A program made the position numbers and the translations under genes. Under the pieces are notes generated by a model. It saw nothing but the letters and a program-made list of their open reading frames with translations. It ran no database searches and was not told the origin of the DNA. A stretch of DNA of 64,000 nt from Paenibacillus glycanilyticus (lineage in GTDB: Bacteria > Bacillota > Bacilli > Paenibacillales > Paenibacillaceae), in contig NZ_BSSQ01000014.1 of NCBI RefSeq assembly GCF_030161375.1, positions 343,095 through 407,094 on the forward strand, given 5' to 3'. This document shows, in pieces, positions 27,525 through 44,972 of this stretch; position 1 is the first letter of the stretch, and each line of letters begins with the position of its first letter.

Positions 27525-28124
27525 TTATTGCGCTGTTTGCGGAACAATCGGGTTATTCAGCATGTCCTTATAGCTAGGATCGAAATAAGCGGTAAAAGCA
27601 AGTTCGGCCGTATCCATCCCGCTGTCCGTCTGCTGCAACGTATAGGAATTAACGACAACAAGCCGTTTTTGCCGTTCCAGTTGATCCATCCAACTTTTCA
27701 CCTGCGCGTGTGTGCCAAGCAAAGATACGTGGACATTCACTTCTTGAACCGTCGGATACAGCGGGTCGGCGTTGTCGGATAGCAGATTCAGCTTATTGTC
27801 GCCAGGCAAATCTATCGTTGCGCTATTCACCTTTGCCCCGGTCTGCTGGCTTAAGGTTTTGAGGCTGACGACAAGCTGCTCGGAATTATCCCATAGCGGA
27901 AGCGCGGCTTGAATGTCCTGCTCCGGGAGATTGCTTCCTTCTTCTTTCTTGTTGATACTCGCTTGAAGGGCATTGAGCTGTTGCTCCGCGTTACTAACAA
28001 GCCCCTTCTGATCCAACAATTCGGAGCTGGAAGGCTGAAGCAGCACCACGTACAACAGCAGCAGAACAAGGAACAGCAACATCATGACGATGAGTCCAAA
28101 CGAGCGGTTTTTGGCATTATCCAT
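27525..28124 (-). CDS. pilO: PilO-like type IV pilus assembly protein
   Basis: 199 residues: short cytoplasmic N-terminus (MDNAKNRS), one membrane helix (about 9-30, FGLIVMMLLFLVLLLLYVVL), a coiled coil (about 38-62), and an outer alpha/beta domain with a ferredoxin-like look. This is the architecture of PilO, which pairs with PilN on the outer face of the membrane and links the cytoplasmic PilM to the pilus. ATG at 28124 overlaps the end of the pilM-pilN gene by eight bases, with AGGAGG upstream. Sequence identity to Gram-negative PilO is weak; the assignment rests on architecture and position. Confidence 0.85.
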   Translation of the reverse strand: MDNAKNRSFGLIVMMLLFLVLLLLYVVLLQPSSSELLDQKGLVSNAEQQLNALQASINKKEEGSNLPEQDIQAALPLWDNSEQLVVSLKTLSQQTGAKVNSATIDLPGDNKLNLLSDNADPLYPTVQEVNVHVSLLGTHAQVKSWMDQLERQKRLVVVNSYTLQQTDSGMDTAELAFTAYFDPSYKDMLNNPIVPQTAQ

Positions 28125-29604
28125 TGTCCGTCCCTCCTGTCTCCTCTTGCTTCTCCGGCCCTTTCCACCCGATCTGGTAGCTGCCGTACCATACGCCGTT
28201 ATTATCCGCAAATGTTTGCAGCTGCACCGAGCCAACAAACGACATCGCGCGCAAACTTGTCAGATAAGTAGACAACGCGGTCAAGTCCGCGCTTTTGAAC
28301 GTGAGTGCGATTACGCCCGGTTTGTTGTATTCAATCGTCGTAAGCCGGGAGCCGTATGGCAGCTTGTTCGATAGTTCATCAAGCACGGCAACCGCATCTT
28401 GGCGATGTTCTTTAATGAATTGGATGACTTCCTGCGGGTCCGCATTAGCCGCTGCCACGGTATCCTGAGAACTAACCTGCTTCTCCAGCAGAGCCGTCTG
28501 ATCTTTCAGAACCTGCAACGTATGCTCGTAATCCGAGATTTGAAGCCGGTTATTTGTATTCAGAGCCAGAATAGCCCCCAAACAAAGCAGCCACACGATC
28601 CCTGCGACAAGCAGCTTGGCCGGAATTTGTTTGGTTTTGCGCACCTTCTCCGGCATCAGATTAATGCCCGTGCTCGCTTTCTCCCGAATGGCAAGGCCAA
28701 ACGGAATCATAAATTCATCCAGCTTCCTCCGTACCCGCTTGCGAAGAGGCGACTCCAGCTCAACCGTCTCGACTCTCATATCCGGCTGCGCTTGTTGAAG
28801 TTCAGCCGCTAATTGCGTGCGCCCTGCCAGCTCTCCCGCGATAATAGCTTGTACGATACGGAACTTGCCTTCATGAATACTGTATTGATAGAAGCTCAAG
28901 AGCCGCGCGATCTCGGCATTAATGCTCGTGATCAATTCCGGCGTGAACGTTCCGTCCGAAGTGCCGCTGTAATCGTACTCGTTAATCACCCGCATAAAGA
29001 CCGGATGGCCATTGTGGAACATATATACTTCGACATTTGCTTTGTCCAGATGGATCAGCATCGAATTATCAAGTGGATCCTTGTATTGCGCCTGAATCGC
29101 CCGGGCAAAAGCCGTTGAAGCCAGTTCCGCGAACTTTACCTTCAGCCCAACGCTTTCAAGCAGGTCTATGCTTTGTTTGATCCAACGCTGCGGAGAGGCG
29201 TAGACTAGCACGTTAGTTGCTTGCTCTTCCGATCCGGCGGCTATGTAATCATAGACGGGATCTTCAAACGGAAGATGAAGCGCTGTCTCCACTTCCAGAT
29301 TGATAAGCTGGCTCAGCTCCTTGGGATTAACGGTTCCGATCTGCATCTTGCGAATAATAATTTGCGAGGTAGGAATGGACAGCGTAATGGCGGTGCCGTT
29401 AAGCTTCTCCTTCTTCACCCAGTCTTTCAGACTGGAACGAAGCTCTTCCATGTTCGTGAATTGATCCTCAAGAATGACTCCGTCGGCAAAAGGCAGGAAG
29501 CCGGTTTTTTCGATCTCCCAGCCCTTTTTCCTTTTCCTTACTCTCGCGTAGCGTACTCCGCCATGATCAATCGTTAGACCAATACGCTTGTTACTGTCGA
29601 GCAT
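28117..29604 (-). CDS. Fused PilM-PilN pilus assembly protein
   Basis: 495 residues combining two proteins that are usually separate. Residues 1-310 form an actin-like ATPase of the PilM type: RIGLTIDHGGVRYARV (phosphate 1 region), ITLSIPTSQIIIRKM, ELSQLINLEVETALHLP and AIIAGELAG. Residues 313-495 are PilN-like: the family opening GINLMPEKVR, one membrane helix (about 329-349), a coiled coil and an outer ferredoxin-like domain. In PilMN complexes the N-terminal INL motif of PilN docks into PilM; here the tie is covalent. It sits between the prepilin peptidase gene and pilO. I saw no stop or frameshift between the halves. Confidence 0.9.
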   Translation of the reverse strand: MLDSNKRIGLTIDHGGVRYARVRKRKKGWEIEKTGFLPFADGVILEDQFTNMEELRSSLKDWVKKEKLNGTAITLSIPTSQIIIRKMQIGTVNPKELSQLINLEVETALHLPFEDPVYDYIAAGSEEQATNVLVYASPQRWIKQSIDLLESVGLKVKFAELASTAFARAIQAQYKDPLDNSMLIHLDKANVEVYMFHNGHPVFMRVINEYDYSGTSDGTFTPELITSINAEIARLLSFYQYSIHEGKFRIVQAIIAGELAGRTQLAAELQQAQPDMRVETVELESPLRKRVRRKLDEFMIPFGLAIREKASTGINLMPEKVRKTKQIPAKLLVAGIVWLLCLGAILALNTNNRLQISDYEHTLQVLKDQTALLEKQVSSQDTVAAANADPQEVIQFIKEHRQDAVAVLDELSNKLPYGSRLTTIEYNKPGVIALTFKSADLTALSTYLTSLRAMSFVGSVQLQTFADNNGVWYGSYQIGWKGPEKQEETGGTDNG

Positions 29605-29620
29605 TCTTCATCACATCCCA

Positions 29621-30376
29621 CTACATCAGAATTGAACGGTAAACATCAATCATCGCATCGCCGTAAGCAAATGACAGTAAAGCGCCTATTAGCAAAAAAG
29701 GTCCAAACGGAATCGGTTGTTTTCTTGTCACAATCTTCAGAAGCAATAATAAACCTCCGACCAAGCTGCCAAGGAAGCAAGCGATAATAAAGGCCGGGAT
29801 AAGATGGGACAAGCCAAGAATCCATCCCAGCAGCGTTAATAGCTTCACGTCGCCTAATCCCATGCCCCCCTTGGTAAGGATAACGACCAATAGCAGCACA
29901 CCGCCGCCAACAACCGCACCCCACGCATGCTGCCAGATCGAATCGACGGGGGACAGGAATCTCCACACCAGAAATACCGGTGCAAAAGCTAGCAAAATAC
30001 GGTTAGGCAATAACATATATTTCAAATCGGAGACGGTAAGAATGACGGACATGCTGACGAGCAGCAGTCCCAATACCGTATTCCAGCTGTTTCCGAAGGT
30101 TATGTAAATCCAAACAAACAATAAACCGGTAGCTAGCTCCCCTAACGGATACACGGGCGAGATCCGAACGCCGCATTGGCGGCAACGGCCGCGGGCGAGC
30201 AAATAACTAACTACAGGCATCAGATCGCGAGGCTTCAAGCGGTTCCCGCATTTCGGACATTGCGAAGGCGGCGACACCACCGACAGCTTGAGCGGAATCC
30301 GGAGACCAACAACGTTATAGAAAGAGCCTAAGATTATGCCGACAAAAAAGAGATAAATCGTAAGGAATAGGGTCAT
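29621..30376 (-). CDS. pilD: Type IV prepilin peptidase (A24, PilD/ComC)
   Basis: 251-residue polytopic aspartic protease that cleaves and N-methylates prepilins. The N-terminal domain includes the zinc-type cysteine pairs CPKCGNRL and CRQCGVRI; the two catalytic aspartates are in VSDLKYMLLPNR and in GMGLGDVKLL (the GxGD motif). About eight membrane helices. No clear ribosome site is visible before the ATG. It follows the pilin gene, after a hairpin, and must process the major pilin and the three minor pilins encoded in this region. Confidence 0.95.
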   Translation of the reverse strand: MTLFLTIYLFFVGIILGSFYNVVGLRIPLKLSVVSPPSQCPKCGNRLKPRDLMPVVSYLLARGRCRQCGVRISPVYPLGELATGLLFVWIYITFGNSWNTVLGLLLVSMSVILTVSDLKYMLLPNRILLAFAPVFLVWRFLSPVDSIWQHAWGAVVGGGVLLLVVILTKGGMGLGDVKLLTLLGWILGLSHLIPAFIIACFLGSLVGGLLLLLKIVTRKQPIPFGPFLLIGALLSFAYGDAMIDVYRSILM

Positions 30377-30409
30377 AGGCGGGTTCGCTTTCGGATGTAT
30401 TTAGAAGAT

Positions 30410-30440
30410 TTCCGGAATCGGTATTAATCCGATTCCGGAA
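30410..30440 (-). terminator. Hairpin between pilin and prepilin peptidase genes
   Basis: TTCCGGAATCGG pairs with CCGATTCCGGAA across a short AT loop. The following T tract is weak, so it may stabilise or partly terminate the abundant pilin message. Confidence 0.65.
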
Positions 30441-30446
30441 ACATTG

Positions 30447-30908
30447 TTATCTATCTTTTTTACCTTTTAATACTTCATCTTTTGAAACTCCTGCATTTGC
30501 AATAGTAGCCGTTTTGAGTGTTACTGATTGGAGCGATCCATCCTCATTAAAAGCTACTTGTGTACCATCAATTAAAGGCTCTTTTGTACTCGGCAAAACT
30601 GTTGTTCCCGCCAGATATCCGTTATCGACCAAATCATCTAATGTTACTATTACACCGTTAACAGTTTCAGCATCTTCCGCACCTTCAAAATTGCCATTCT
30701 CTTCGCCAGTTACATATAATTTAGCTGCATCATAAATTTGGCGTGCAGTTGCAACATTAGAATCTTCTCTAGTATTATCAATAATTCTACCAATCAACGG
30801 AATCGCAATTACCGCGATAACCGCCAGGATTACAATTACCGCCAAAAGCTCAATCAGAGTAAAGCCTTTTTCTTCTTTCTTCAGACGTTTCATCATTCTT
30901 TTCAACAT
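30447..30908 (-). CDS. Type IV major pilin-like protein
   Basis: 153-residue prepilin. Leader MLKRMMKRLKKEEKG, then the processing site G/FTLIELLAVIVILAVI with glutamate at position 5 of the mature protein and a long hydrophobic helix, then a C-terminal domain of about 110 residues. GGAGG seven bases before the ATG at 30908. No cysteines are seen, so no disulphide loop. The gene body is clearly richer in A+T than the flanking pil genes. Adjacent pilC and pilD genes indicate it is the main substrate of this machine. ComGC-type pseudopilins are shorter (about 100 residues), which argues for a true pilin. Confidence 0.92.
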   Translation of the reverse strand: MLKRMMKRLKKEEKGFTLIELLAVIVILAVIAVIAIPLIGRIIDNTREDSNVATARQIYDAAKLYVTGEENGNFEGAEDAETVNGVIVTLDDLVDNGYLAGTTVLPSTKEPLIDGTQVAFNEDGSLQSVTLKTATIANAGVSKDEVLKGKKDR

Positions 30909-30983
30909 GTGATTTCCTCCCAATAATGGATTATTTCTTTTGTCTCTTCTATGTTGTCTTGCTGTAAACCCCTTGGAATCTAG

Positions 30984-32192
30984 TTATTGAACGTTGGAGT
31001 ACAAAGTGAACATCGGCAATATAATCGCCATAACGATTAATCCCACGACACCGGCCAGAAAGACGATCAGCAGCGGCTCGATGAGCGACTTAAGACGGTC
31101 GACGGTGTTGTCGACGTCCATCTCGTAAAAGTCCGCGATTTTGGCTAGCATCTGATCGAGTGAACCCGTCTCTTCGCCTACCGCAATCATTTGCGTCACT
31201 AGCGGCGGGAATACCCAGGCCTTCTTGAACGGCTCGGATAAGGAATTGCCTTGCCTTAGCGATTCTCCCGACTTGCGTATGTATCCGCCGATCACTTTGT
31301 TGCCTACCACCTCCTCCACGATAGTAAGGGATTGCAGTACGGGAACGGAGCTGGCATACAAAGAAGATAAGGTGCGCGACATTTGGGCTATGGCGCCTTT
31401 TTGCGCGAGCTTGCCGAAGATCGGCATCTTGAGCTTGGCATAATCAAGCACGTATTGCCCCCGCTCCGTGCGTTTATAAATCTGGTAACCGAGTATAAGG
31501 ACGACCAGGCCGATGACCCAGTAATACCATTGGTGGGACATGCTTTTGCTTAACGCGAGTACAATCTTCGTAATCGCCGGAAGCTCCGTATCAAAGGACT
31601 CGAACATCGTCACGAATTGCGGGACTACGCCTTGCAGCAGATAAATAACCGCGGCGATCGACATGAATCCCACAACCATCGGATAAGTCATCGCTGACTT
31701 AATCTTCTCTTTGGTCGTGTGCGCTTTCTCGAAAAACAACGCCAACCGGTCCAGCGTTCCTTCCAAGTCGCCGGTCTCCTCGCCGGCACGGATCATGCTA
31801 ACGAACAACGGCGGAAAAATCCGCTTATGCTCCTGAACGGCCTGGGAGAACGGAAGCCCCCGAAGAAGGGCTGAGCTTACCTCTACTAATGCTTTTTTGA
31901 GCGGTTTACTTTCCGTCTGCGCGGCCAGAATGTTAGTTGCTTCTACGATCGTTACCCCGGCGCGGATGAGCGTGGAGAACTGCCGGCAGAAAATAATAAA
32001 ATGAATGCTTTTGACCGGATTGCCTATGTAGATCTCGGTGGATAGAATGCTTTTGCGTATTTCCTCTACGGACAATACGATTAATCCGCGTTTGCGAAGC
32101 TCCTCCACCGCCGAGGACTTGTCCATGGAGTTCAGCTTGCCTTGCAGCTGTTTGCCTCCGCTGGTCTTGACATGATAAGCAAATTGCGGCAT
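30984..32192 (-). CDS. pilC: Type IV pilus inner-membrane platform protein (PilC/GspF)
   Basis: 402 residues with two GspF domains: first about 66-190 (FCRQFSTLIRAGVTIVEA, MIRAGEETGDLEGTLDRLA), second about 270-395 (MSRTLSSLYASSVPVLQSL, MIAVGEETGSLDQMLAKIA), and three membrane helices. The platform protein couples the ATPases to pilin. The start codon overlaps the pilT stop (TAATG) and GGAGG lies six bases upstream, so translation is coupled. Confidence 0.96.
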   Translation of the reverse strand: MPQFAYHVKTSGGKQLQGKLNSMDKSSAVEELRKRGLIVLSVEEIRKSILSTEIYIGNPVKSIHFIIFCRQFSTLIRAGVTIVEATNILAAQTESKPLKKALVEVSSALLRGLPFSQAVQEHKRIFPPLFVSMIRAGEETGDLEGTLDRLALFFEKAHTTKEKIKSAMTYPMVVGFMSIAAVIYLLQGVVPQFVTMFESFDTELPAITKIVLALSKSMSHQWYYWVIGLVVLILGYQIYKRTERGQYVLDYAKLKMPIFGKLAQKGAIAQMSRTLSSLYASSVPVLQSLTIVEEVVGNKVIGGYIRKSGESLRQGNSLSEPFKKAWVFPPLVTQMIAVGEETGSLDQMLAKIADFYEMDVDNTVDRLKSLIEPLLIVFLAGVVGLIVMAIILPMFTLYSNVQ

Positions 32193-33232
32193 TACAAACC
32201 TCCTTCCGCCAAATACGGCTTAGCGGCATCGGGATGAATCGTTCCTGCAAGCAGCAGGTCCTTCACCGACATATCCATCGTGTGCATGCCAAGCGTACGG
32301 CTTGTCTGCATGACGCTGCGAATCTGATGCACTTTATCGGTCCGGATCAAATTCGCTACCGCAGGCGTGTTCATCAATATTTCCGTAGCGCAAGCCCGGC
32401 CGTCTGCCCGCTTCGGAAGCAGCCGTTGGGCCACGATCGTGACAAGAATCGATGCAAGTTGCGAACGAATCTGACCCTGTTGATGAGCCGGAAAAGCGTC
32501 GATAACGCGATCAATCGTTTGAGGAGCATCGGATGTATGCAAAGTCGCTAATACAAGATGGCCCGTCTCCGCTGCGGTTATCGCCGCTGCTATCGTCTCG
32601 AGGTCGCGCATCTCTCCGACCAATATCACGTCCGGATCCTGCCGGAGCGCTGCCCTAAGACCATTCGAGAAACTTCGCGTATCCTGACCTACTTCTCTTT
32701 GATCAATAATGGAGTTCTTGCTTGTATGTAGAAATTCGATAGGATCTTCAAGCGTTACAATATGTCTGGCTTGCTTCCGGTTAATATGATCAATAAGTGC
32801 CGCTAGCGTTGACGACTTCCCGCTTCCGGTTGGCCCCGTCACCAAGATCAGCCCTTGATGCCTCTCTGCTAGCAGGGCTAGCGAAGCCGGCAATTGAAGC
32901 TGCTCGAAGGTCGGTATTTGCGATGGGATAATCCTAGCGGCAATGCTGATCAAACCTCTTTGCTTGTAGACATTCAGCCGGAAGCGGCAACAGCCTGGCA
33001 ATGCAAGGGAGAAATCCACTTCTCCTTCGGACCGCAGCTTGTCCGCCTGATCGCTTGTCATCAGTCGAAGCGCCATCGCTTCTGCGGATTCTTTTGTAAT
33101 AGGTACATCCCCAACTTTGCAAAGCTCTCCATTAATCCGTAACGCCGGTAGATTCCCGGCCGATAAATGAAGATCCGAAGCCCGGCGTTCATAGGCCTCC
33201 TGCAGCCAATTAAATATAAGATCGTTAGGCAT
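32192..33232 (-). CDS. pilT: Twitching-motility retraction ATPase
   Basis: 346-residue hexameric ATPase that pulls pilins back into the membrane. N-terminal ASDLHLSAGNLPALRINGEL, Walker A ILVTGPTGSGKSSTLAAL, Asp box VTLEDPIEF, Walker B LRQDPDVILVGEMRDLET, His box TLHTSDAPQTIDR. ATG at 33232 has GGAGG six bases upstream. A retraction ATPase separates this system from the ComG pseudopilus and from type II secretion, both of which lack PilT, and implies dynamic pili able to give twitching or DNA uptake. Confidence 0.95.
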   Translation of the reverse strand: MPNDLIFNWLQEAYERRASDLHLSAGNLPALRINGELCKVGDVPITKESAEAMALRLMTSDQADKLRSEGEVDFSLALPGCCRFRLNVYKQRGLISIAARIIPSQIPTFEQLQLPASLALLAERHQGLILVTGPTGSGKSSTLAALIDHINRKQARHIVTLEDPIEFLHTSKNSIIDQREVGQDTRSFSNGLRAALRQDPDVILVGEMRDLETIAAAITAAETGHLVLATLHTSDAPQTIDRVIDAFPAHQQGQIRSQLASILVTIVAQRLLPKRADGRACATEILMNTPAVANLIRTDKVHQIRSVMQTSRTLGMHTMDMSVKDLLLAGTIHPDAAKPYLAEGGL

Positions 33233-33282
33233 AGCCGTCCTCCTAGACATTAACGGAGTACATTCCACCTTGAAAACATGGC

Positions 33283-34947
33283 TTAGTTGGCCACGGTTTC
33301 GCGGAGAACTTCTTGCAAGGTCGTAATGCCGCGCGTAACTTTGTCCACTCCGTCATCCATCAGTTGAATCATCCCTTGTTTGGCTGCTGCCTCCCGGAGT
33401 TCGCTTAAGGAACCGGATAGCGTAATTAACTCGCGGATCTCGTTATTCACATGCAAGACTTCATGAATTGCTACCCTGCCGCGATATCCCGTGCTGCCGC
33501 AGTTGCCGCAGCCTCTTCCGCGGTACAGCTTCTCCGCTTGAATCCCCCTGCTCCTGAGGAACAACCTTTCCTGATCGGTAGGTTCATGCGCTTCTTTGCA
33601 ATCGTTGCAAATCCGGCGTACGAGCCGCTGCGCAACAACGCCTATTAAGGAAGAAGCAATCAGATACGGCTCAACTCCCATATCCCGGAATCGAGTAATG
33701 GAGCTAACGGAATCGTTCGTATGCAAGGTGGATAACACCAAGTGGCCCGTCAGGGAAGCGCGTATGGCGATCTCCGCCGTTTCCGTATCCCGGATTTCGC
33801 CGACCATGACTACGTTCGGATCCTGACGCAGGATGGAACGCAATCCGGTAGCAAAAGATAAGCCAATCGTAGGGTTAACCTGTACCTGGTTAATGCCGTC
33901 AAGCTGGTATTCGACCGGATCCTCGACGGTAATGATATTGGTGTCTTCTTCATTCAGGTGGCTAAGCGCCGAATACAATGTTGTTGTTTTACCGCTGCCC
34001 GTTGGCCCCGTAATGAGAAGAATGCCGTAAGGCCGCTCAATCATTTCTTTAAAGACGCTGACGTTATGGTTATTGAAGCCCAGCTGGTCAATGGCCTTCA
34101 CGCCGGTGCTAAGGTCGAGAAGCCGGAGCACGATTTTCTCGCCGTGAATGGTAGGCAAAGAAGATACGCGGATATCCACGGTCTTGAATTCGAACTGCAT
34201 CTTCATCCGCCCGTCCTGCGGCAGCCTCCGCTCGGCGATGTTCAGCTTGGACATAATCTTGAGCCTTGCCGTAATAAAACCTTGCATCTGTTTCGGAATA
34301 GCCCGTTCCGTGCGGAGTACGCCATCAATCCGATATCGGATCGTTACGCTTGTCTCGCCCGGATCCACGTGAATGTCCGAAGCTCTAAGCTGTACGGCCT
34401 GTTGAATCATCTGGTTAACAAGCCTCACAACGGGTGAATCTTCATCTGTAATTTCGGTCTCGCGAATCTCTTCCTGCGTAGGAAGCTCAATCATCATTTG
34501 GCTCATCGAGTCCTGCAAGCCGTAATGCCTTGCAATGGCCCGCTGAAGTTCATCTTTGCTTGAGATAGCCGGTTCGATTCGGAAGCCTGTGCTCATGCGA
34601 AGCTCTTCGATCGCGAAGTAGTCTAGAGGGTCTGCCATCGCCACCATCAGTTTGCCGCCGTCCTTATGGAGCGGAATTGCCTGGTAACGCTTGGCCATGC
34701 TTTCGGGGATGATCTGGGTGATTTCCGGATCAATCTGGTATTTATAAAGACTAACGTGAGGAATCCCAAGCTGGAATTCCAACACTTCAATGAGCTGCTG
34801 CTCGGTTATGTATCCTTGTGCGATCAATAAGTCGCCTAACTTTTGCTTCGATTTGCCCTGCTCTTGCAGCGCCTTCTGCAGCTGTTCTTCGGATATTATG
34901 GCGCTTTCGACCAACAAATCTCCTAGTCTCTTCTTAATAGCCACCAT
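33283..34947 (-). CDS. pilB: Pilus extension ATPase (PilB/GspE)
   Basis: 554 residues. N-terminal MshEN-type domain (about 1-150: KRLGDLLVESAIISEEQL and LGDLLIAQGYITEQQLIEV), which in relatives binds c-di-GMP. The central ATPase has Walker A LITGPTGSGKTTTLYSAL, Asp box ITVEDPVEYQ, Walker B ILRQDPNVVMVGEIRDTET, His box TLHTNDSVSSI; the zinc module has CNDC and CGNCG. It powers pilus extension. First gene of the minus-strand pil operon; the ATG at 34947 has only a weak ribosome site (AAGAG). Confidence 0.96.
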   Translation of the reverse strand: MVAIKKRLGDLLVESAIISEEQLQKALQEQGKSKQKLGDLLIAQGYITEQQLIEVLEFQLGIPHVSLYKYQIDPEITQIIPESMAKRYQAIPLHKDGGKLMVAMADPLDYFAIEELRMSTGFRIEPAISSKDELQRAIARHYGLQDSMSQMMIELPTQEEIRETEITDEDSPVVRLVNQMIQQAVQLRASDIHVDPGETSVTIRYRIDGVLRTERAIPKQMQGFITARLKIMSKLNIAERRLPQDGRMKMQFEFKTVDIRVSSLPTIHGEKIVLRLLDLSTGVKAIDQLGFNNHNVSVFKEMIERPYGILLITGPTGSGKTTTLYSALSHLNEEDTNIITVEDPVEYQLDGINQVQVNPTIGLSFATGLRSILRQDPNVVMVGEIRDTETAEIAIRASLTGHLVLSTLHTNDSVSSITRFRDMGVEPYLIASSLIGVVAQRLVRRICNDCKEAHEPTDQERLFLRSRGIQAEKLYRGRGCGNCGSTGYRGRVAIHEVLHVNNEIRELITLSGSLSELREAAAKQGMIQLMDDGVDKVTRGITTLQEVLRETVAN

Positions 34948-35200
34948 CTCTTAACAGCCCCATTCTCTTATATCTTCACTAATAGATATAAACGCGATAT
35001 ACAAAATGTATCGAAGTAGGGTCCTATGTACCTAAAATTGTAGACCACAGCACCATTTTTGGCAATATTTATTATATTACTTATTGCATCTAACGACCCT
35101 CTGACTTAAACTGATTATAGCGCATAATTACTAGATTTCAAGAAGTTTTTTAGGTATATGGAACTATGTAAACAGAATGTAAAATTGGGAGGATAGGACT
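34948..35200. promoter_or_regulatory. Divergent control region between pilB and the Big2 protein gene
   Basis: No gene here. AT-rich, with an imperfect palindrome CGATATACA-AAA-TGTATCG (about 34996-35014) upstream of pilB. For the plus-strand gene a possible promoter is CTGACT (35101-35106), 16-base spacer, CATAAT (35123-35128), then GGGAGG eight bases before the ATG. The shared region would allow coordinated control of pilus and surface protein. Confidence 0.45.
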
Positions 35201-38200
35201 ATGAAATCAGTAAATTTTCAGAAAAGAATTTCCATCACCTTAGTCATTACTCTCCTTGCGTCGGTATTCGCATTTGTGGGCTACCCGGTGAAACATGCTG
35301 AAGCGGCGAATACGTTCGACCTGGGACTCGTGGCGCTGAAATCGTCTGGGAAAGGGAAGTTCGTGAGGGTAACAACAAGCGGCACTACGCCAACCGCTGA
35401 CTCCAATGATGTATGGAAGGAAGAGTTGTTTGTACTCCAGAAATCCGGCAACTACTACACGCTTAAATCGAACAATACAGGGAAATACCTTACCGCACCA
35501 ACCAGTACAAGCTCCTCGGTAAAAGCGGACGCTACTTCCGTCACGAATTCGCAGAAATTTTCGATTGCGCAAAATACGGACGGTACCGTATCCTTTCTCG
35601 CTTATTCAAAAATCTCAGGTACAAAATATTATTTGGGATCTGCCAGTGACAATTATCTCTATACAGGCAGTTCAACAATAGGCGCAGCCCAAAAGTTCAA
35701 ACTCACCTCCTACCGCAATGCGATTCGGATCCTCGAAGTGACGGAATCCGGGACTTCTGACCTCTATTCCATTCTAGGCACTAATACTCCAATCCCCTTT
35801 ACTATCGATACATACAGCATGAAGGAATTTGTCGCTTCCAGGGATGACCTGGACGGTAAATACGATGTCGTATACATTGGCAAAGGTACACTAGTCGACA
35901 AAGACAACAAAGCAAAAACTCCGTACAGCATGACCCTTCTTGGCACGCAAACGCAAGGAACCACGCAGAGCAACAACCACAATACAAGCAGCATACAGAA
36001 CGATATCACGCAGCTTAAGGCTAATGAGATCACCAATGATTTTATTACCAAAGGACTGCCGGTTATCTTCTACAATGATTCAGGCACTTCTAACGGCGTT
36101 GAATATCAAGCCGATCTTAGTTCAACCAATAAAGCACTTTTAAAGAAGAACTTCCTTCCTTATAAAACACAGCAAAGCACAACGAGCGTTATTTTCGTTG
36201 ATTCCACCAATATCTCGACCGCGGATAATTTCATGAGCAAAACTAATTTGCTCGAGAAAGCAAACGTCCGGCCTCAATTAACAGTGACTAGCAAACCAAA
36301 TGACTACACGGCTAACCAGGCTAATCAATATAAGGCTGGCGATACCATCAGCTTTGGTTACACGATTGATAATGTCGGCGATATCAGCTCTAAAAATATC
36401 GAGCTCAACCTGTACATCAGTACGGACAGCGCCCTGCCTTTTGGCGCCGAACAAGTCGTTGCTACGAAGCAGGCGAACAGCGCAAGCGGAACGATCACTT
36501 ACACGCTGCCGAAAGGTTATTCGGGCATTCAATATTGGCGGCTTGAAGCGGTGGATTTCAACACCAAACTGAAGGATTATACTTCGGGTGTTTACCGGTT
36601 CCAGGATCAGAAGATTAACATCAAGGTCCTGCAAGTTATGCCTAATGACAGCAGCGCCAGTTCGCTCAAGGATACAAACAACATGAAATCGGCTTATCTC
36701 GCTCCAACATCCGGCAACACAAGCGATGCCTACAGCATCAGCATAGACACCATGAACATGAACACTTTCAACAGTGATGGCTATAAGACTTTAAACGGCA
36801 AATACGATATGCTGATTTTTGGTTTCGGCGATATTTACAACAATAACGCGCCGATTAGCGATAATGCCGCGGCTGCCGTTATCACCTTTATTAACACCAA
36901 ACAAAGCGTCATGTTTACCCATGATACGATTTATAACAGCAGCAACTCGAACAGCCGTAACTGGCTCGACAAATTCCAAGATATAACCGGTCAAATCGCT
37001 CCGCGCACGGATCTCGGTCTCGGAGCACCAGAGTCTTCAACAACGACGGAAAAAGTAAACGACGGCTTGTTAACGCAGTTCCCGTTCCTGCTCAGCGATA
37101 CAACCAATGTCGCAACAACGCATAACCAATACTACACACTTAAATTGGAAGATCCGACGGTCATCCCATGGTATAACATGAGCGGTGGCAAACGGACTTC
37201 CGGCGACAGCTGGAACTCGTTCTATACTTACTCCAAAGAGAATGTAACTTACTCAGGTTCGGGTCATACGAATTCCAAGTTCCCCGACTGGGAGCAGCAA
37301 TTATTCGTCAATACGATGTACCGGGCTTATCTCGGTTCCAACCATGCGCCTCAGTTGACCGTCAACTCGCCGGTAGAGTACAACTCAACAACCAACAACT
37401 TCATTCCGTCGTATCAGAACATTTTGCTCAATTATCAAGTCGATGATTTCGACCTTGGGGATCGTGAACTGAAGACTTCCGTTGACTTCACCTACAGTGG
37501 CAAAACGGAACATATATTGACGAATGAATCTGTGCTTGCAGGCGGCACCATCAACAAGCAGATTGCCAATCCGCTTCCGAATGGCGGAGATCTGAAGATT
37601 GATATTACTGCTACGGACAAGTCCGGCGCTGTCGTCAGCAAAACGATTAACGTAAAAATCGTCAAAGTCGAATCCAATATTGATTTGAGCCGGACGGTGT
37701 CCAGCAACGTCAAGGATAACCGGGTTCAAACCAATACAGCAGCTACGTTCACTTATACGATTACTCCAAAACCTATTGCAGCGAGCGGCTCTTTGACTGC
37801 TGATCAAATGAAAATAACGAATATTAAATTCAACGAAACGTTGCCCGCGAACTTGGAAGTGACCACTCTTCCTAGCGGATTCACGAAAACCGGTTCGGCA
37901 ACAACCGGCTATACGGTATCCGGAACACTTAATCAAATCACTTACAGCTTAAACGGAAACAATTATACGGCTGTACCTATGTCATTCGAGATTGGCGTAA
38001 AACCAACGAAAGACGGGTTGTACCCGCTTCAGAACGCTGTACTCACGTTTAACGATATTGGCCAGCAAACCGCAAGAACGTTAATGTTCCCAAGCTACGT
38101 GCTTGAAGCAGTAACAAAACTGACTTCGCTCAGCTTAACGGATTCAACTCTGCTTGTAGGAGACAGCAGGAAAATGATCCCAACTATTGCACCGCTTAAC

Positions 38201-39943
38201 GCAACTTACGGTTCGGCGTTCACTTGGGAGACTGACCGGCCAGATCTTGTCACAGTCGACAACTCCGGCATCTTGAAAGGCATTGCAGCCGGAACAGCCC
38301 GCATTACGGCAAGAGCAACGGATGGCAGCGGATTGATCGCTACAGCAGCCGTAACGGCTATTAAGCCAGGACTTAATATTGTCGGTCAGAACCGTGTCGC
38401 AACAGGAGATTCCATTAATTTAGCTGCAAATCTGTATACAGCCGATTACGAGAAAATTACAAGCTATCAATGGAGTATCACAACGGGCTCAAGCAAGATC
38501 AGCTTAACCGGATCAACCAATAGCACAGTCTCCGTGACTGGAAATAGTATCGGAACAGCTACTGTACATCTAACGGTTGGAACGGACCAGAGCAACAAAT
38601 ACGAAAGTGATATAACTATAACCGTGTATAAAAAGGTAACCTCCATTACAGTCACCGGAACCAAAATGTTTGTTGGAGATACCTATCAACTTAACCCTGT
38701 TGTAGGCCCATCAGACGCAACGGATAAATCTATTGTATATTTGCCAAGCAGCGACTCTAGCGTAGCTACCGTTAACAGCTCCGGACTTGTTACGGCGGTT
38801 GGTGCCGGAGAAGCAAGAATTACCGTGCAAGCCCAAGACGGCAGCGGAGTTACGGGTACTGCGGTTATTACCGTAGTTAAACGCACTCTGGTCACTTCCA
38901 TTGATTTGACGGGTACAACCATGCAGGTTGGATCGACGTATCAGCTTAATCCTGTCGTAAGTCCTGCAGACGCAACTAACAAATCGGTCACTTGGACGAG
39001 CAGTAAACCGAACATCGCAACCGTAAATAGCACAGGACTTGTTACTGCTGTTAGTGTTGGTGAAACCACGATTACCGCACAAGCCCAAGACGGCAGCGGA
39101 GTACAGGGTACAGCGGTTATTACCGTTATTAGAACGATTCCGGTCGCTTCCATTGCGATAACGGATACAACATTGGTAGTTGGCTCAACCTATGACCTTA
39201 ATCCGGTTATAAGCCCATCGGATGCAACCAATAAAACAACTACGCTATCAAGCAGTAATCCAAACATCGCAAACGTAAACAGTTCCGGAATTGTCACAGC
39301 CGTAAGCGCTGGAGTAGCTGTAATAACGGTTCAAGCTCAAGACGGCAGCAATGTAAAAGGGACAGCGACAATTACGGTTATAAATCCGGCGGCCGTAATC
39401 ACGGGACCAACCAGCTTAGAGCTTGGAACCGATGGAACAATGAACGCCAGCCTTCAGCCGCAAATCCCAGGCGATGCAATAAACGTTATTACATGGTCGT
39501 TTACCGAAGGTGTTGATCAGGTCACTGTTAAGGGATCAACAACAGGCACTTCTCTTACATTTACCGGCAAAAAAGCAGGTAAAATAAAGATTAAAGCAAC
39601 CATCCGGACAAATAGCGGCAAAATCTTTACGGCAGAACAAGAAATAACCATTAAGTCCGTTAGATTGCAGCTAGAAAAGACGTACCGCATCAAAGTCGGA
39701 ACAAGCAAAGAACTGTTTGATGCCCTTGCTTCCAGTCCAGCAGCAGGCAAAAACAATATTAAAGGCGATCTGGCGTGGACTTCGAGTAATCCGGCGATTG
39801 CCAAAGTTGACGCGAACACAGGTCGCGTTACCGGAGTAAAGACTGGGACGGTAACCATCACGGTCACCTACAGAAATGATCCATCCATCACCGCCAAGAC
39901 GACTATCATCGTGGAAAGAAATTCAAACGGCGAGAAATACTAA
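35201..39943 (+). CDS. Large secreted Ig-like (Big2) protein, DUF5057-like; candidate pilus adhesin
   Basis: 1580 residues. Signal peptide 1-35 (core ITLVITLLASVFAFVG, cleavage after AEA). Residues about 40-170 look like a fascin-like beta-trefoil (GKFVRVTTSG, GKYLTAPTST, YYLGSASDNYLYTG). About 174-870 resembles DUF5057: two similar halves opening IRILEVTESG and IKVLQVMPND with a CARDB-like domain between. Ig-like Big2 units follow: one at about 971-1052, three tandem 84-residue units at about 1145-1395, one at the C-terminus (about 1480-1575). No LPxTG motif, membrane anchor or S-layer domain is seen, so it is either released or held by another protein. GGAGG eight bases before the ATG. Its position between pilB and the minor pilin genes suggests a pilus-linked adhesin; that is inference. 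Confidence 0.88.
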   Translation: MKSVNFQKRISITLVITLLASVFAFVGYPVKHAEAANTFDLGLVALKSSGKGKFVRVTTSGTTPTADSNDVWKEELFVLQKSGNYYTLKSNNTGKYLTAPTSTSSSVKADATSVTNSQKFSIAQNTDGTVSFLAYSKISGTKYYLGSASDNYLYTGSSTIGAAQKFKLTSYRNAIRILEVTESGTSDLYSILGTNTPIPFTIDTYSMKEFVASRDDLDGKYDVVYIGKGTLVDKDNKAKTPYSMTLLGTQTQGTTQSNNHNTSSIQNDITQLKANEITNDFITKGLPVIFYNDSGTSNGVEYQADLSSTNKALLKKNFLPYKTQQSTTSVIFVDSTNISTADNFMSKTNLLEKANVRPQLTVTSKPNDYTANQANQYKAGDTISFGYTIDNVGDISSKNIELNLYISTDSALPFGAEQVVATKQANSASGTITYTLPKGYSGIQYWRLEAVDFNTKLKDYTSGVYRFQDQKINIKVLQVMPNDSSASSLKDTNNMKSAYLAPTSGNTSDAYSISIDTMNMNTFNSDGYKTLNGKYDMLIFGFGDIYNNNAPISDNAAAAVITFINTKQSVMFTHDTIYNSSNSNSRNWLDKFQDITGQIAPRTDLGLGAPESSTTTEKVNDGLLTQFPFLLSDTTNVATTHNQYYTLKLEDPTVIPWYNMSGGKRTSGDSWNSFYTYSKENVTYSGSGHTNSKFPDWEQQLFVNTMYRAYLGSNHAPQLTVNSPVEYNSTTNNFIPSYQNILLNYQVDDFDLGDRELKTSVDFTYSGKTEHILTNESVLAGGTINKQIANPLPNGGDLKIDITATDKSGAVVSKTINVKIVKVESNIDLSRTVSSNVKDNRVQTNTAATFTYTITPKPIAASGSLTADQMKITNIKFNETLPANLEVTTLPSGFTKTGSATTGYTVSGTLNQITYSLNGNNYTAVPMSFEIGVKPTKDGLYPLQNAVLTFNDIGQQTARTLMFPSYVLEAVTKLTSLSLTDSTLLVGDSRKMIPTIAPLNATYGSAFTWETDRPDLVTVDNSGILKGIAAGTARITARATDGSGLIATAAVTAIKPGLNIVGQNRVATGDSINLAANLYTADYEKITSYQWSITTGSSKISLTGSTNSTVSVTGNSIGTATVHLTVGTDQSNKYESDITITVYKKVTSITVTGTKMFVGDTYQLNPVVGPSDATDKSIVYLPSSDSSVATVNSSGLVTAVGAGEARITVQAQDGSGVTGTAVITVVKRTLVTSIDLTGTTMQVGSTYQLNPVVSPADATNKSVTWTSSKPNIATVNSTGLVTAVSVGETTITAQAQDGSGVQGTAVITVIRTIPVASIAITDTTLVVGSTYDLNPVISPSDATNKTTTLSSSNPNIANVNSSGIVTAVSAGVAVITVQAQDGSNVKGTATITVINPAAVITGPTSLELGTDGTMNASLQPQIPGDAINVITWSFTEGVDQVTVKGSTTGTSLTFTGKKAGKIKIKATIRTNSGKIFTAEQEITIKSVRLQLEKTYRIKVGTSKELFDALASSPAAGKNNIKGDLAWTSSNPAIAKVDANTGRVTGVKTGTVTITVTYRNDPSITAKTTIIVERNSNGEKY
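38634..39390 (+). repeat. Three tandem 252-base repeats coding Big2 domains
   Basis: The block GCCCAAGACGGCAGC recurs at 38831, 39083 and (slightly changed) 39335, an exact 252-base period equal to 84 residues. Divergence between copies is modest, so unit number may vary between strains by recombination. Confidence 0.85.
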
Positions 39944-39950
39944 TATTCAC

Positions 39951-39988
39951 AAAAGGAATGACCCGGTTGTTATAGGGTCATTCCTTTT
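39951..39988 (+). terminator. Terminator of the Big2 protein gene
   Basis: AAAAGGAATGACCC pairs with its complement, followed by TTTTTATT; directly after the stop codon. Confidence 0.92.
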
Positions 39989-40010
39989 TATTCGACGCCA
40001 AAACAAAAGC

Positions 40011-40042
40011 AGCCCCTAAGTCACGGTAATGACTTAAGGGCT
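40011..40042 (-). terminator. Terminator of the minor pilin operon
   Basis: AGCCCTTAAGTCA pairs with TGACTTAGGGGCT (one mismatch) on the minus strand, followed by GCTTTTGTTTT. Confidence 0.85.
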
Positions 40043-40054
40043 ACTATTTTGTGA

Positions 40055-41800
40055 TTATGAATTTGATGCCACTAACTGCTTTTTCCCTACAATAACGCTT
40101 AACTTCTTTACGCGGGGCAAGCCTTCGTATTGATTCTCGAACAAGTCATAATCGTAGTTGATTATAAACCGTGAGTCTTCTTTGGTGAGTGAGTTTTGCG
40201 GTCTCGGATCAAATATAATATCGGAATCTCCCTCCGAGGCTTTCCCCAGCACGGCATTAATCGTTAAATCACCTTTTGAGAAGAATCCTCCCCTTAACCA
40301 GAAGATCGAGCCTACGCCATAGAGCTCCGCATCTTGATCGGTATAAAAGAAAGCATCAAGGATATTTGGTTTGTTCGGACTATAAGTGCCAAAGTCATTA
40401 AAGGAGTCGACCTTGTTAACCAGTACGGGCCCTTTCGAGATCATAATCAGCTGCTGGCGATCCCCATTGTTCTGAATCCCTTGAATTTGCGCGTCTTCTA
40501 TGGTTGTACTTCCCAGTGTAAAGATCGTGGAATCGACTTTCACTGAATCGCTTATAAAGACATTGCCTGTTACAAGAATGTTTGCTTTAACGACAAGCGG
40601 ATCGCTGGAATAGTTGGAGATCGTCAAATCACCGTTTACAATCAGCCATTTATGTTGGTTCTTTTTGGCATCATCGGTATAAATCATGTTTTTATAATCA
40701 ATGCCGTCAAGTGCCAGGTTACCGTTAAACATAACCGTACTGGATAAAGAGTTGAAGTGTACAAAATAAGCCTCGTAATCTGCTAATTTCTTATCATAAT
40801 CAGCCATCAAGGCCTCGTCATCCAGATCCGTAGGCAAAGTTGGCTTTGGAGGAGGCCCTTCGGTGTACTGCACGCCGCTGCCGGCTTTCAGCAGGGACAC
40901 AAGACTGTTGAAACTTCCGGTTGTTCCGCTATTCGCGATTCCGGAATCCACGGCAGATTTAATATCGCTGCGATTTACCTTCGTAGCCTCTTCCGCCTTG
41001 TCGATGAAGGATTCGGCAACGTTAATGGAGATAAACTTCTGCTGATCGCGAAGCTGAATGTTTTTGTTCTCCACGCCAAGCAATTGCTGCAACGTCAGGT
41101 TAGTTCGCGAATACGGCTGATACTTGCCGCTAATGTCCAATACTTTAATGGAATCCATATTCTGAATAAAAATATCGCCTTCAAAATACGGATATTTTGT
41201 CTCTTTCTTTTTATCCGGATCATTATTGTAGACATATTTGGCTGTATTGCTAATCAGAAATTCATGTCCGGCATAGATATTGCCAAGTCCATAAGCAGCA
41301 CCGTTAATAATAACATCATTCTCAGAACCAAAAGCATAGTTGAGGAAATCCGGATAAGCCCCTATTGTAATCAGCTGGGTTAACTTCCTCTTCACCTTGT
41401 TCACTTCTGCTTCTGCGGTCAGGTTCAGCTTATAGCTGGTCTGATCGCCGATGTTCACCTGCTCCATGGTGATGTCCGTAATTTTCCCGCTAGCTCCCTG
41501 GAAGCTGGATTTGGTGTCTCTTTTCTTCAACTCAATCACGGCATTATTCATCAAGACTGAAAGTTCCTCGGGAGCAATATCTTCCCTGCCGTCGTATTTG
41601 GTGACGAGATAGGAAGCTGCTTCGCTTAACGTTTTTTCCGCAAGATGCAGGCTCTGCACATCGCTTTCCCGCGTTTCCGCCCGCGTTGCCCCGCCAAGCG
41701 TGGAGCTGACCACCGCCGTGCCCAATATCGTCAGAAGCAAGATCATAAACAAAACCATAACTAGCGCATATCCTCGCTCTCGATCATTCCCCAGTGGCAT
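40055..41800 (-). CDS. PilX-like minor pilin with large C-terminal domain
   Basis: 581 residues. The N-terminus MPLGNDRERGYALVMVLFM has the PilX-type pattern: a short basic leader, then a hydrophobic helix (about 10-35) with G/Y at the likely processing point, but without the FTLIE box and without the usual glutamate at position 5. The remainder (about 45-581) is a soluble outer domain; its middle (VIINGAAYGLGNIYAGHEF; GNLALDGIDYKNM; DLTISNYSSD; NVFISDSVKVDS) has the short repeated beta pattern of parallel beta-helix proteins. PilX proteins sit at pilus tips with PilV, PilW and PilY1. It follows the PilW-like gene by 12 bases. Bigger than Gram-negative PilX (about 200 residues). Confidence 0.86.
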   Translation of the reverse strand: MPLGNDRERGYALVMVLFMILLLTILGTAVVSSTLGGATRAETRESDVQSLHLAEKTLSEAASYLVTKYDGREDIAPEELSVLMNNAVIELKKRDTKSSFQGASGKITDITMEQVNIGDQTSYKLNLTAEAEVNKVKRKLTQLITIGAYPDFLNYAFGSENDVIINGAAYGLGNIYAGHEFLISNTAKYVYNNDPDKKKETKYPYFEGDIFIQNMDSIKVLDISGKYQPYSRTNLTLQQLLGVENKNIQLRDQQKFISINVAESFIDKAEEATKVNRSDIKSAVDSGIANSGTTGSFNSLVSLLKAGSGVQYTEGPPPKPTLPTDLDDEALMADYDKKLADYEAYFVHFNSLSSTVMFNGNLALDGIDYKNMIYTDDAKKNQHKWLIVNGDLTISNYSSDPLVVKANILVTGNVFISDSVKVDSTIFTLGSTTIEDAQIQGIQNNGDRQQLIMISKGPVLVNKVDSFNDFGTYSPNKPNILDAFFYTDQDAELYGVGSIFWLRGGFFSKGDLTINAVLGKASEGDSDIIFDPRPQNSLTKEDSRFIINYDYDLFENQYEGLPRVKKLSVIVGKKQLVASNS

Positions 41801-41812
41801 GCAGCCTTCCTC

Positions 41813-42337
41813 CTAAAACCCGAATTTACTTTCCAGAGTCAGCTGCTGATTGCGGCCGTTATGCTTCTGCTCAAGCACAAGCTTGATCGTAATAAGACCG
41901 CTGCTGCATTCCGTTACATTCGTGCTGCATTTGAGCTCTATGGCCGAAGTTTCTGATGAAGCATTCGTCTGATCCGGCAATTCGACTTCCGATCTTGTAT
42001 CAATAATCCGGTCGCCGATGTGAAGTTGCTTGTTCTGGAAAAAGATCTTCCTATCTTCCGGCGTCCCCACATCCCGTATGAGCTTAACACCATCCGGATC
42101 GGCCGCTATTAAGTCCGGTCCATACGAATACAATTCCGTTATGATCGAGGACATAAGCAAATCCCCATCGTCCCGCAGGGCATTTTCCGTTTCGATTCGG
42201 TTGTATGTATTCATGCCAAAGGTAATAACCGAGAAAATAATTCCTGCCGCGATTGAAAGCAAGGTCATCGACGCAATCAGCTCAACGAGCGTGAGTCCCT
42301 GCTCTTCGCTCCGCCATTTCTTAACGAACTCTCTCAC
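41813..42337 (-). CDS. PilW/PulJ-like minor pilin
   Basis: 174 residues. Prepilin leader MREFVKKWRSEEQG, cleavage site G/LTLVELIASMTLLSIA with glutamate 5, then an outer domain with one cysteine pair (KCSTNVTEC). It starts with GTG, overlaps the preceding PilV-like gene by 17 bases and uses GGAGGGG ten bases upstream within that gene. Such minor pilins form the initiation complex that starts pilus assembly. Confidence 0.92.
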   Translation of the reverse strand: MREFVKKWRSEEQGLTLVELIASMTLLSIAAGIIFSVITFGMNTYNRIETENALRDDGDLLMSSIITELYSYGPDLIAADPDGVKLIRDVGTPEDRKIFFQNKQLHIGDRIIDTRSEVELPDQTNASSETSAIELKCSTNVTECSSGLITIKLVLEQKHNGRNQQLTLESKFGF

Positions 42338-42851
42338 TGGCGATATACCCCTCCACTTCCGCCGCGTTACGCGCGCTCGCTGTTCCGTTCACTTTCTCAA
42401 CCCTTACCAGAACAGGCAGCAGTTCTTCCGCCATATTTTTCGTATCCGAATTGTTGAGCATATCGTTATGCATATCCCTCTGATAAATGACGGAAATCGT
42501 GTACTGAACATTGTTGATGTTGGGGTTTAGAATCTGCTGCAAGATCGAGGAGTCTTCCGCCAGTTGACTGACGTTGGCGTCACAGCCAGATACCGGGCAA
42601 GTAATTGCCGTGTTGGTGGTGTTCGCGAAATAAGTATGTATCGGTTCATAAGACTGCTTCTCCATGTAGAAGAGCGCGTTGCGCGCCAAGTTGACCATAA
42701 CCGTCTTGCTCTGATTGCCTTTCGCATAAGTAAGTGCGTTCGTGAAGAAGGAGGTGAGCACCAGACTGACCACCGACAAAATAACGAGAGCAGCCAATAC
42801 TTCCACCAAAGTTAATCCGGATTCATCCGTTCCGCGCCGAATCCATTTCAT
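42321..42851 (-). CDS. PilV-like minor pilin
   Basis: 176 residues. Leader MKWIRRGTDESG, cleavage site G/LTLVEVLAALVILSVV with glutamate 5, then an outer domain with a possible disulphide (CPVSGC). ATG at 42851 has AGGTG eight bases upstream. First gene of the three-gene minor pilin operon, which is convergent with the Big2 protein gene. The AT-rich stretch 42852-43005 upstream holds no gene and presumably carries its promoter. Confidence 0.9.
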   Translation of the reverse strand: MKWIRRGTDESGLTLVEVLAALVILSVVSLVLTSFFTNALTYAKGNQSKTVMVNLARNALFYMEKQSYEPIHTYFANTTNTAITCPVSGCDANVSQLAEDSSILQQILNPNINNVQYTISVIYQRDMHNDMLNNSDTKNMAEELLPVLVRVEKVNGTASARNAAEVEGYIASERVR

Positions 42852-43005
42852 CGGAATAGCACCTACCATCTACCAGCATTTTATTATCGCTAAAACTACT
42901 TCTATTTTACTATAAACTAGCTAATTTTACCATGAAACCTAATTCTAATTTCATAGATTTTGAGTGAGAATAATAAGTCTATAGAACTATCTCCATGCCA
43001 ACAAA

Positions 43006-44951: not shown

Positions 44952-44972
44952 CAGAAAGGAATTTTTACAATT

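Follow-up and report, generated by a model that had tools for sequence, protein, structure and literature searches.

Within the 64,000-nucleotide stretch of DNA from the soil bacterium Paenibacillus glycanilyticus analysed here (the window), a gene for a very large secreted protein, referred to below as BIG, lies divergently among type IV pilus genes. The question raised by this locus is whether BIG is a working part of the pilus or only its neighbour. The locus was examined by profile scans, structure prediction and comparison across genomes.

The pilus machine

The whole type IVa pilus locus spans positions 27525-42869 of the window (Table 1). The initial annotation had described ATPases for extension and retraction, a platform protein, a peptidase, a pilin, alignment proteins and three minor pilins within about 15 kb. 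These genes are indeed present in the locus, with coordinates correct to within a start codon, but PilM and PilN are encoded by one fused gene and the supposed PilO scored as the type II secretion protein GspM, not as PilO.

Table 1. Features of the pilus locus, with positions numbered from the first letter of the window.
Feature	Coordinates	Strand	Evidence
PilO-position protein, GspM-like, 199 aa	27525..28124	-	PF04612 T2SSM 28.7 bits (cut-off 27.8) and PF10741 22.9 bits, both slightly above cut-off
PilM-PilN fusion, 495 aa	28117..29604	-	PilM_2 60.5 bits; PilN 20.1 bits, slightly below cut-off 22.8
PilD prepilin peptidase	29621..30376	-	A24_N_bact and Peptidase_A24 matches
13-pair hairpin between pilA and pilD	30409..30441		hairpin prediction
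PilA, probable major pilin, class III signal with Glu5	30447..30923	-	N_methyl; IV_pilin_GFxxxE
PilC platform protein	30984..32192	-	T2SSF 201.9 bits
PilT retraction ATPase	32192..33268	-	TIGR01420 467.5 bits (cut-off 319.1)
PilB extension ATPase, N-terminal MshEN (c-di-GMP) domain	33283..34947	-	T2SSE 460.5 bits; MshEN; NCBI c-di-GMP motif model 70.8 bits (cut-off 38)
pilB/BIG divergent intergenic region	34948..35200		direct reading
BIG, secreted modular protein, 1580 aa	35201..39943	+	signal peptide (by eye), beta-trefoil, DUF5057 with ThuA-like domain, Ig domains, five Big_2 stretches, C-terminal ...NGEKY
Two hairpins between convergent BIG and pilX genes	39952..40045		first read by eye; second 17 pairs at 40008-40045
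PilX-like tip pilin, 581 aa, without Glu5, beta-solenoid inserted before last pilin strand	40055..41800	-	sequence and predicted model
PilW-like minor pilin with Glu5	41813..42337	-	N_methyl; sequence
PilV-like minor pilin with Glu5	42321..42869	-	N_methyl; TIGR02523 below cut-off; alternative ATG at 42851

In the Pfam scan, N_methyl was above cut-off in PilA and two minor pilins; elsewhere in the genome PF07963 was matched just once at E up to 1, on a different contig. PilT lies beside PilB and is accompanied by a platform protein, a prepilin peptidase, PilM/N/O-type proteins and prepilins, a composition that defines a type IVa pilus, with the caveat that the protein in the PilO position resembles GspM and that PilN falls slightly below cut-off. 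From its genes, the locus is predicted to encode a retractable Gram-positive type IVa pilus, which is probably under c-di-GMP control through PilB. The pilA-pilD hairpin may influence pilA mRNA stability or read-through, and both hairpins between BIG and pilX are probable terminators. No Rfam family, c-di-GMP riboswitches included, reached its gathering score in the window, and promoter-like sites were not enriched (24 against a shuffle mean of 23.1).

Assignment to the ComG pseudopilus was rejected. ComG competence pili are not known to carry PilT, which is present here, and PilB, PilC and PilA scored 267.6, 164.4 and 31 bits against cut-offs of 300, 240 and 75 for ComGA, ComGB and ComGC, so that the earlier exclusion of a plain ComG pseudopilus holds. 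The PilT gene also sets the locus apart from type II secretion systems, which are described as lacking it. The reported lack of a secretin or PilP was also borne out, none being seen among the locus genes scanned.

The locus had been put forward as a distinct system. This description fits the partner protein and its tip pilin and not the machine, because Gram-positive type IV pili with PilT are already known from published descriptions (PMC9765702, PMC6916266). Paenibacillus thiaminolyticus Mbale, as described in PMC9765702, has a pilus locus that likewise contains PilB (MshEN), PilT, PilC, PilD and PilM, and deletion of pilB, pilC and pilT abolished lethality in mice; its PilM and PilN are separate, in contrast to the fusion in P. 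glycanilyticus. In its main text that paper uses none of the words Ig-like, adhesin and PilX. The pilus machine is ordinary, and what is new is the dedicated non-pilin partner.

Linkage of BIG to one pilus subtype

It had been proposed that the pilus has a very large partner protein of its own, an idea to be checked by co-occurrence with pilVWX and to be abandoned if the Big2 gene proved randomly placed relative to pil genes in other genomes. Among 197 Paenibacillaceae genomes, DUF5057 was found in 64, PilT above cut-off in 89, and both in 62. In 62 of these 62 the DUF5057 and PilT genes are divergent neighbours, 3.3-4.0 kb apart, which contradicts random placement. The PilX family was strongly matched (E <1e-60) in 64 of the 197 genomes, exactly the 64 where BIG was found, namely the 62 with DUF5057 and PilT together with G064 and G128, where BIG is without its DUF5057 head. 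A dedicated large partner is thus what these comparisons support. Since the arrangement recurs in dozens of species it is beyond chance, and coincidence or an annotation artefact was ruled out.

In a PilB tree, the PilBs of BIG loci formed one clade (46/46, support 100/99) that contains no row without BIG, whereas other pilus subtypes of the family had no BIG in the stretches examined (23/25 such genomes). By sequence, BIG marks one pilus subtype; because BIG pili form one clade, counts from this family do not stand for independent events. Across 38 related loci, co-divergence with BIG (partial r given PilB) was somewhat stronger for PilX (0.52) than for PilW (0.45), PilMN (0.35) or PilC (0.21). 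In one species PilVWX is 25 kb away from BIG, and three Paenibacillaceae copies of DUF5057 (G146, G062 and the second of G157) lie near neither a pil gene nor a prepilin-like ORF. DUF5057 is not exclusive to pili.

The association extended to other Bacillota families. Prepilin-like ORFs were present at 41 of 44 DUF5057 loci outside Paenibacillaceae compared with 0 of 19 control regions; 115 of 116 such ORFs were on the DUF5057 strand and 112 were upstream, and at 37 of the 44 loci one lay <=200 bp upstream. In family f87, PilT was above cut-off in 31/32 genomes with DUF5057 and 66/118 without; in family f136 PilT was non-discriminating (11/11 and 60/68, respectively).

BIG and its candidate capping pilin

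The N-terminus of BIG reads by eye as a Sec-type signal; the profile scan gave no N_methyl match, hence no class III signal was seen. DUF5057 (PF16480) scored 66.8 bits against a gathering score of 27.9. A ricin-type trefoil was weakly matched in the profile scan, and in a structure search the trefoil resembled CBM92 (7zoh, E 4.4e-10). The ThuA-like domain (model 399-682) aligned with 4jqs over 221 residues (Z 17.8, rmsd 4.2). Foldseek matches to the head were mostly multi-domain Ig proteins at low TM-score, the trefoil and the ThuA-like domain being the only clear ones, with other parts of the head given only slight structural testing. Ig and trefoil look-alikes were among the best 50 matches in a viral structure library.

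The N-terminal modules vary among 45 relatives (DUF5057 in 43, ricin-type trefoil in 16, pAdhesive_15 in 11). In the two BIGs without DUF5057 (L044 and L051), an apparent swap of the head for an adhesive domain was rejected on comparison with the sister protein of L056: both have simply lost the DUF5057 head, and what follows it is common to all three. The BIG of L056 contains a single LPLTN string with no membrane segment behind it.

The C-terminus, by contrast with the modules, is constant. The last residue is Tyr in 46/46 proteins, with K or R at -2 in 42/46 and D, E or N at -3 in 43/46, and this [DEN][KR]Y tail stands behind a variable linker. Among 455 ORFs of at least 300 aa from Paenibacillaceae loci, 42 end in [DEN][KR]Y, none of them shorter than 700 aa.

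PilX had no Pfam or NCBIfam match at E 0.001 and no sequence relative among solved structures at E up to 1. Its predicted model (pLDDT 84.5) found ComZ as best Foldseek match (E 1.7e-5). Over the whole chain the superposition was poor (TM-scores 0.17-0.23, rmsd 17-20; also Z 14.3 at rmsd 11.2), and in the model the likeness holds per domain, not per chain. The PilX solenoid resembles DUF3494 ice-binding proteins (Z 15.9, rmsd 2.8-3.2, 192-198 aligned). ComZ, a beta-solenoid tip pilin of Thermus thermophilus (6qvi), shares with the PilX model a pilin fold with a DUF3494-like solenoid before the last strand; ComZ binds DNA and PilA2, and no BIG-like partner appears in the description of it in PMC6561018. 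Glu5 is missing from PilX in all loci with a readable pattern (39 of 45) and present in PilW in 41/41 loci read. With a pilin fold without Glu5 and a large domain inserted in the sheet, PilX is predicted to have the features of a GspK/ComZ-type capping pilin.

Tapirins are linked to a pilus locus and, to our knowledge, have no BIG-like partner; the literature searched gave nothing on tapirin together with type IV pilus. These beta-helix cellulose adhesins of Caldicellulosiruptor (PMC7142884) gave a weak comparison with the PilX solenoid, near noise level (4wa0; Z 8.2, 180 aligned, rmsd 4.3).

BIG as a putative tip adhesin

We consider it probable, with some reserve, that the locus encodes a retractable Gram-positive type IVa pilus with a tip of PilV, PilW and Glu5-less PilX, and that PilX carries BIG as a Sec-secreted, non-pilin modular adhesin. 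BIG would be exported by Sec, and its tail ([DEN][KR]Y-COOH behind the variable linker) would dock on the complex of PilX and the minor pilins, possibly by adding a beta-strand as in the model of PilY1 on PilX. PilB would then extend the pilus with the PilX/minor-pilin/BIG complex at its front, and the Big2 stalk would keep the binding modules away from the cell. The N-terminal modules (beta-trefoil, DUF5057/ThuA-like and, in some species, an ice-binding-like adhesive domain) could bind a surface or polysaccharide before PilT retracts the pilus. The basis is computational, consisting of the genes, their fixed linkage, one BIG-carrying pilus clade, module variation with a constant tail, and predicted folds; tip location, tail docking, adhesion and retraction are what we infer from it.

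A close analogue is PilC/PilY1, as described in PMC11046646 and PMC8179133. Like BIG, it is large, secreted and not a pilin, its modules vary at the N-terminus while the C-terminal part is conserved, and it acts with PilV/PilW/PilX-type minor pilins; the last eight residues of PilY1 are modelled to add a strand to PilX. PilC/PilY1 is placed in diderms (PMC10191384), whereas the host of BIG is Gram-positive. Membership of BIG in that family was rejected, no PF05567 beta-propeller being matched in BIG (E 0.001) or its 45 relatives (E 0.01); the genome of the window had no match either, but neither did any control genome, so that this negative carries no weight. In Streptococcus sanguinis, PilB and PilC are modular pilins of monoderm pili whose adhesive modules are predicted to sit at the tip (PMC8179133, PMC10628169). 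In these proteins module and pilin form one chain, in contrast to BIG.

Alternatively, BIG may be secreted to the wall or matrix as an adhesin or scaffold, inherited together with pili for surface life and physically separate from them. Proteins of the wall and matrix often contain Big2, PKD and trefoil modules, all of which occur in the BIG family, and BIG is on the opposite strand, divergent from pilB and convergent with pilX. We regard this as unlikely, given that no sortase or wall-binding domain was matched in BIG or 45 relatives and no SLH domain in BIG, that the terminal Tyr is invariant behind a variable linker, that BIG and PilX co-occur in 64/64 genomes, and that the DUF5057 genes of other families stand downstream of prepilin-like genes that share their strand.

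Less probable still is a monoderm machine resembling type II secretion, in which the pilus drives BIG out across the thick wall, the tail serves as recognition signal and BIG is then released. The GspM-like protein, the likeness of PilX to GspK/ComZ-type capping pilins and the PilM-PilN fusion, as described for the counterpart PulL (PMC10191384), would suit it. It is opposed by the above-cut-off PilT gene beside BIG in 62 loci, type II systems being described as without PilT (PMC9765702), by the Sec signal read by eye, through which BIG is already exported, and by the single candidate substrate linked. That BIG acts mainly in assembly or priming, for pilus extension or wall passage, with binding as a side role, seems very improbable: the PilB clade without a BIG-less row would agree with it, as would a priming role of PilY1 in Myxococcus, known from the title of a paper cited in PMC11046646, but in the stretches examined BIG was absent from other Paenibacillaceae pilus subtypes in 23 of 25 genomes, and the modules vary as those of adhesins do.

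On the tip-adhesin reading, DUF5057-type proteins could, as a tentative proposal that we hold at somewhat less than even confidence, be an unrecognised class of non-pilin tip adhesins across several Bacillota families, a separately evolved Gram-positive counterpart of PilY1 seated on a Glu5-less capping pilin through a short conserved C-terminal tail and bearing exchangeable binding modules. Outside Paenibacillaceae, Leu is the second-to-last residue in 41 of 42 complete DUF5057 proteins, compared with 17.9% of 291 background ORFs, and a shared docking mode is uncertain because this tail differs from [DEN][KR]Y. PMC11046646 quotes two PilY1 ends, of which LQNVYELP is reminiscent of the f87 endings and SKVLIYAP is not.

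How Gram-positive type IV pili stick is largely an open question, to which published work replies with pilins that carry a fused adhesive module, as in S. sanguinis (PMC8179133). In the literature searched, mostly non-subscription papers, DUF5057 was not mentioned, and no PilY1-type or non-pilin tip protein in Gram-positives was recognised among the matches listed. The short tail of BIG makes docking directly testable by its removal. If the proposal is true, PF16480, a domain of unknown function, gains a functional hypothesis together with a candidate capping pilin, and the diderm tip-adhesin solution would have a Gram-positive counterpart in the form of a secreted partner, itself not a pilin, that is constant throughout an entire pilus subtype and shows the same link in two further Bacillota families.

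Pilus locus and architecture of BIG

The initial annotation had described a set of pil genes with three minor pilins around a large Ig-like protein, and all of these are present at 27525-42869 of the window, which is from a Paenibacillaceae genome. PilT matched its family model at 467.5 bits, the cut-off being 319.1. PilB was 98% identical to that of Paenibacillus lupini, the closest named relative by PilB, and its MshEN domain matched the NCBI c-di-GMP motif model; the pilus of P. thiaminolyticus is described with the same feature (PMC9765702). At 30409-30441, pilA and pilD are separated by a 13-pair hairpin that may stabilise the mRNA of the major pilin.

Genes of the pilus locus in the window
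Feature	Position	Strand
pilB, pilT, pilC, pilA, pilD, pilM-pilN fusion, gspM-like gene (pilO place)	34947 down to 27525	-
BIG gene (1580 aa)	35201-39943, between the two pil gene groups	+
pilV-like, pilW-like, pilX-like genes	42869 down to 40055	-

The N-terminus of BIG reads as a Sec signal peptide. Five Big_2 stretches were matched, and neither a sortase nor an SLH domain turned up in a domain search of the protein. AlphaFold modelling of residues 36-830 (21 sequences, pLDDT 79.2) predicted a beta-trefoil whose relatives are the fascin-type trefoils and those of carbohydrate-binding CBM92 (structural Z 17.8-19.3, rmsd 1.8-2.3, with some 120-137 residues aligned), which also had a profile match to 7zoh (E 4.4e-10), and a ThuA-like domain inside DUF5057 (4jqs, Z 17.8, 221 aligned, rmsd 4.2).

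Linkage of BIG with the pilus in Paenibacillaceae

Among 197 genomes of Paenibacillaceae, DUF5057 was found in 64 (63 above the cut-off) and PilT above its cut-off in 89, the two together in 62. In all 62, BIG and pilT pointed away from each other, and 3.3-4.0 kb lay between the centres of their domains. The initial annotation had named random placement of BIG relative to the pil genes as one result that would refute its proposal, and these counts contradict such placement. The remaining two genomes, G146 and G062, carried DUF5057 in another kind of protein without a pil gene nearby. A strong PilX profile match (E <1e-60) was likewise obtained in 64 genomes, namely the 62 plus G064 and G128, where BIG stood at the usual place without its trefoil/DUF5057 head; BIG and PilX therefore co-occurred in 64 of 64. 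Matches to PilX were weak only (E 6e-7 to 3e-12) in six more genomes and at a second locus of G066. BIG was seen in none of 23 genomes with PilT and no BIG in the counts above (13-20 kb fetched from each; G076 and G144 were left out of 25).

The gap between the DUF5057 domain and pilX was 2.6-6.8 kb in 61 of the 62 genomes. It reached 25 kb in the remaining one, G054, which had PilVWX intact next to its usual neighbours. For G054, L073 and L110, other genes part PilVWX from BIG by about 25 kb, with all components retained. At loci L021 and L029 the BIG-pilX interval held inserted genes resembling an agr-type peptide signalling set; by sequence reading, the insert in L029 and in L066 (the same place as L021) would encode AgrB-like, LytTR-like and copper-amine-oxidase-like N-terminal proteins.

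A PilB tree of 69 rows placed all 46 rows from BIG loci in one clade (support 100/99), and the simplest reading is that BIG arose once with this pilus subtype. On this reading, the co-occurrence p-value of 5e-27 overstates the independent evidence. A different pilus subtype without BIG was found at three loci (L030, L031, L034) near RlmL-like and sulfatase-domain (LtaS-like) genes; such genes also flank the window pilus (43063-47042), and two of the three loci have its O-methyltransferase gene too. Pilus type may have been exchanged at one chromosomal site.

Constant tail of BIG and the tip pilin candidate

The C-terminal ends of 46 BIG proteins (the window and 45 loci of relatives) were compared. 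The last residue was Tyr in all 46, preceded by K or R in 42, with D, E or N at -3 in 43, and the linkers ahead of this end differed in length. The ending [DEN][KR]Y occurred in 42 of 455 ORFs of at least 300 aa in the Paenibacillaceae BIG loci, and none of these 42 was shorter than 700 aa. In contrast to the constant tail, module content differed among the 45 relatives: at E up to 0.01, Pfam matches were to Big_2 in 44, DUF5057 in 43, a ricin-type trefoil in 16 and the ice-binding-like adhesive domain PF20597 in 11. In one relative (L056) an LPLTN string lay near the end of BIG, with just four residues after it.

The PilX model (16 sequences, pLDDT 84.5) predicted a pilin sheet together with a long helix at the N-terminus; a beta-solenoid (148-552) is inserted ahead of the last strand (568-576). 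Its top Foldseek match was ComZ (6qvi, E 1.7e-5) with low TM-scores of 0.17-0.23, so that the domains would be alike and their arrangement unlike; the predicted pilin part matched S. sanguinis PilA (7o5y, Z 7.8, 105 aligned, rmsd 3.5). Glu5 was absent from PilX wherever it could be read in 45 loci (38 hydrophobic, 1 Arg; 4 unread, 2 without a match) and present in PilW (41/41), PilV (38/39) and PilA (44/44 read). The capping subunit at such tips is described as lacking Glu5 (PMC10191384).

DUF5057 in other families and a proposed model of the tip

In a phylum sample of 398 genomes, DUF5057 was found in three, from two other families of Bacillota (f87 and f136); larger samples gave 32 of 150 f87 and 11 of 79 f136 genomes (10 above the cut-off). 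From these, 44 loci were fetched, two from one genome and some cut by contig ends. Prepilin-like ORFs were found in 41 loci, two or more in 39, and in none of 19 control regions from the same genomes (257 kb, some short contigs). Of 116 such ORFs, 115 shared the DUF5057 strand and 112 lay upstream, with one at most 200 bp upstream of the DUF5057 gene in 37 loci. The loci without one were L119, L120 and L127; in G614, the genome of L119, PilT lay 1.8 kb from DUF5057. PilT was above cut-off in 31 of 32 f87 genomes with DUF5057 versus 66 of 118 without, and the f136 comparison (11/11 versus 60/68) was not informative. Counting against the pilus association, three Paenibacillaceae DUF5057 proteins had no pilin gene nearby. 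Such proteins, at L070, L071 and L072, adjoin response-regulator-like genes, which reads like a second use of the domain.

The penultimate residue was Leu in 41 of 42 complete DUF5057 proteins from these two families (background 17.9% of 291 ORFs), with Phe at -4 in 22, as in LFELD. One locus (L107, 7133-16869) encoded two adjoining giant secreted proteins near minor pilins, one with PA14 and DUF5057 and the other with NPCBM, with nearly the same ending (VKLPSLD and VKLKSLD). As a lead only, the endings in f87 resemble LQNVYELP of Myxococcus PilY1.3, a C-terminal stretch that in a model joins PilX3 as an added strand, and are less like SKVLIYAP of PilY1.1 (both described in PMC11046646).

PilC/PilY1 is described for diderms (PMC10191384), and fused modular pilins are described for monoderms (PMC8179133). 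BIG would be PilC/PilY1-like in its proposed working, but it had no match to PF05567, the C-terminal beta-propeller that defines that family. The most economical reading is a PilV-PilW-PilX-BIG tip complex on a retractable pilus, in which BIG would provide binding at the pilus tip.
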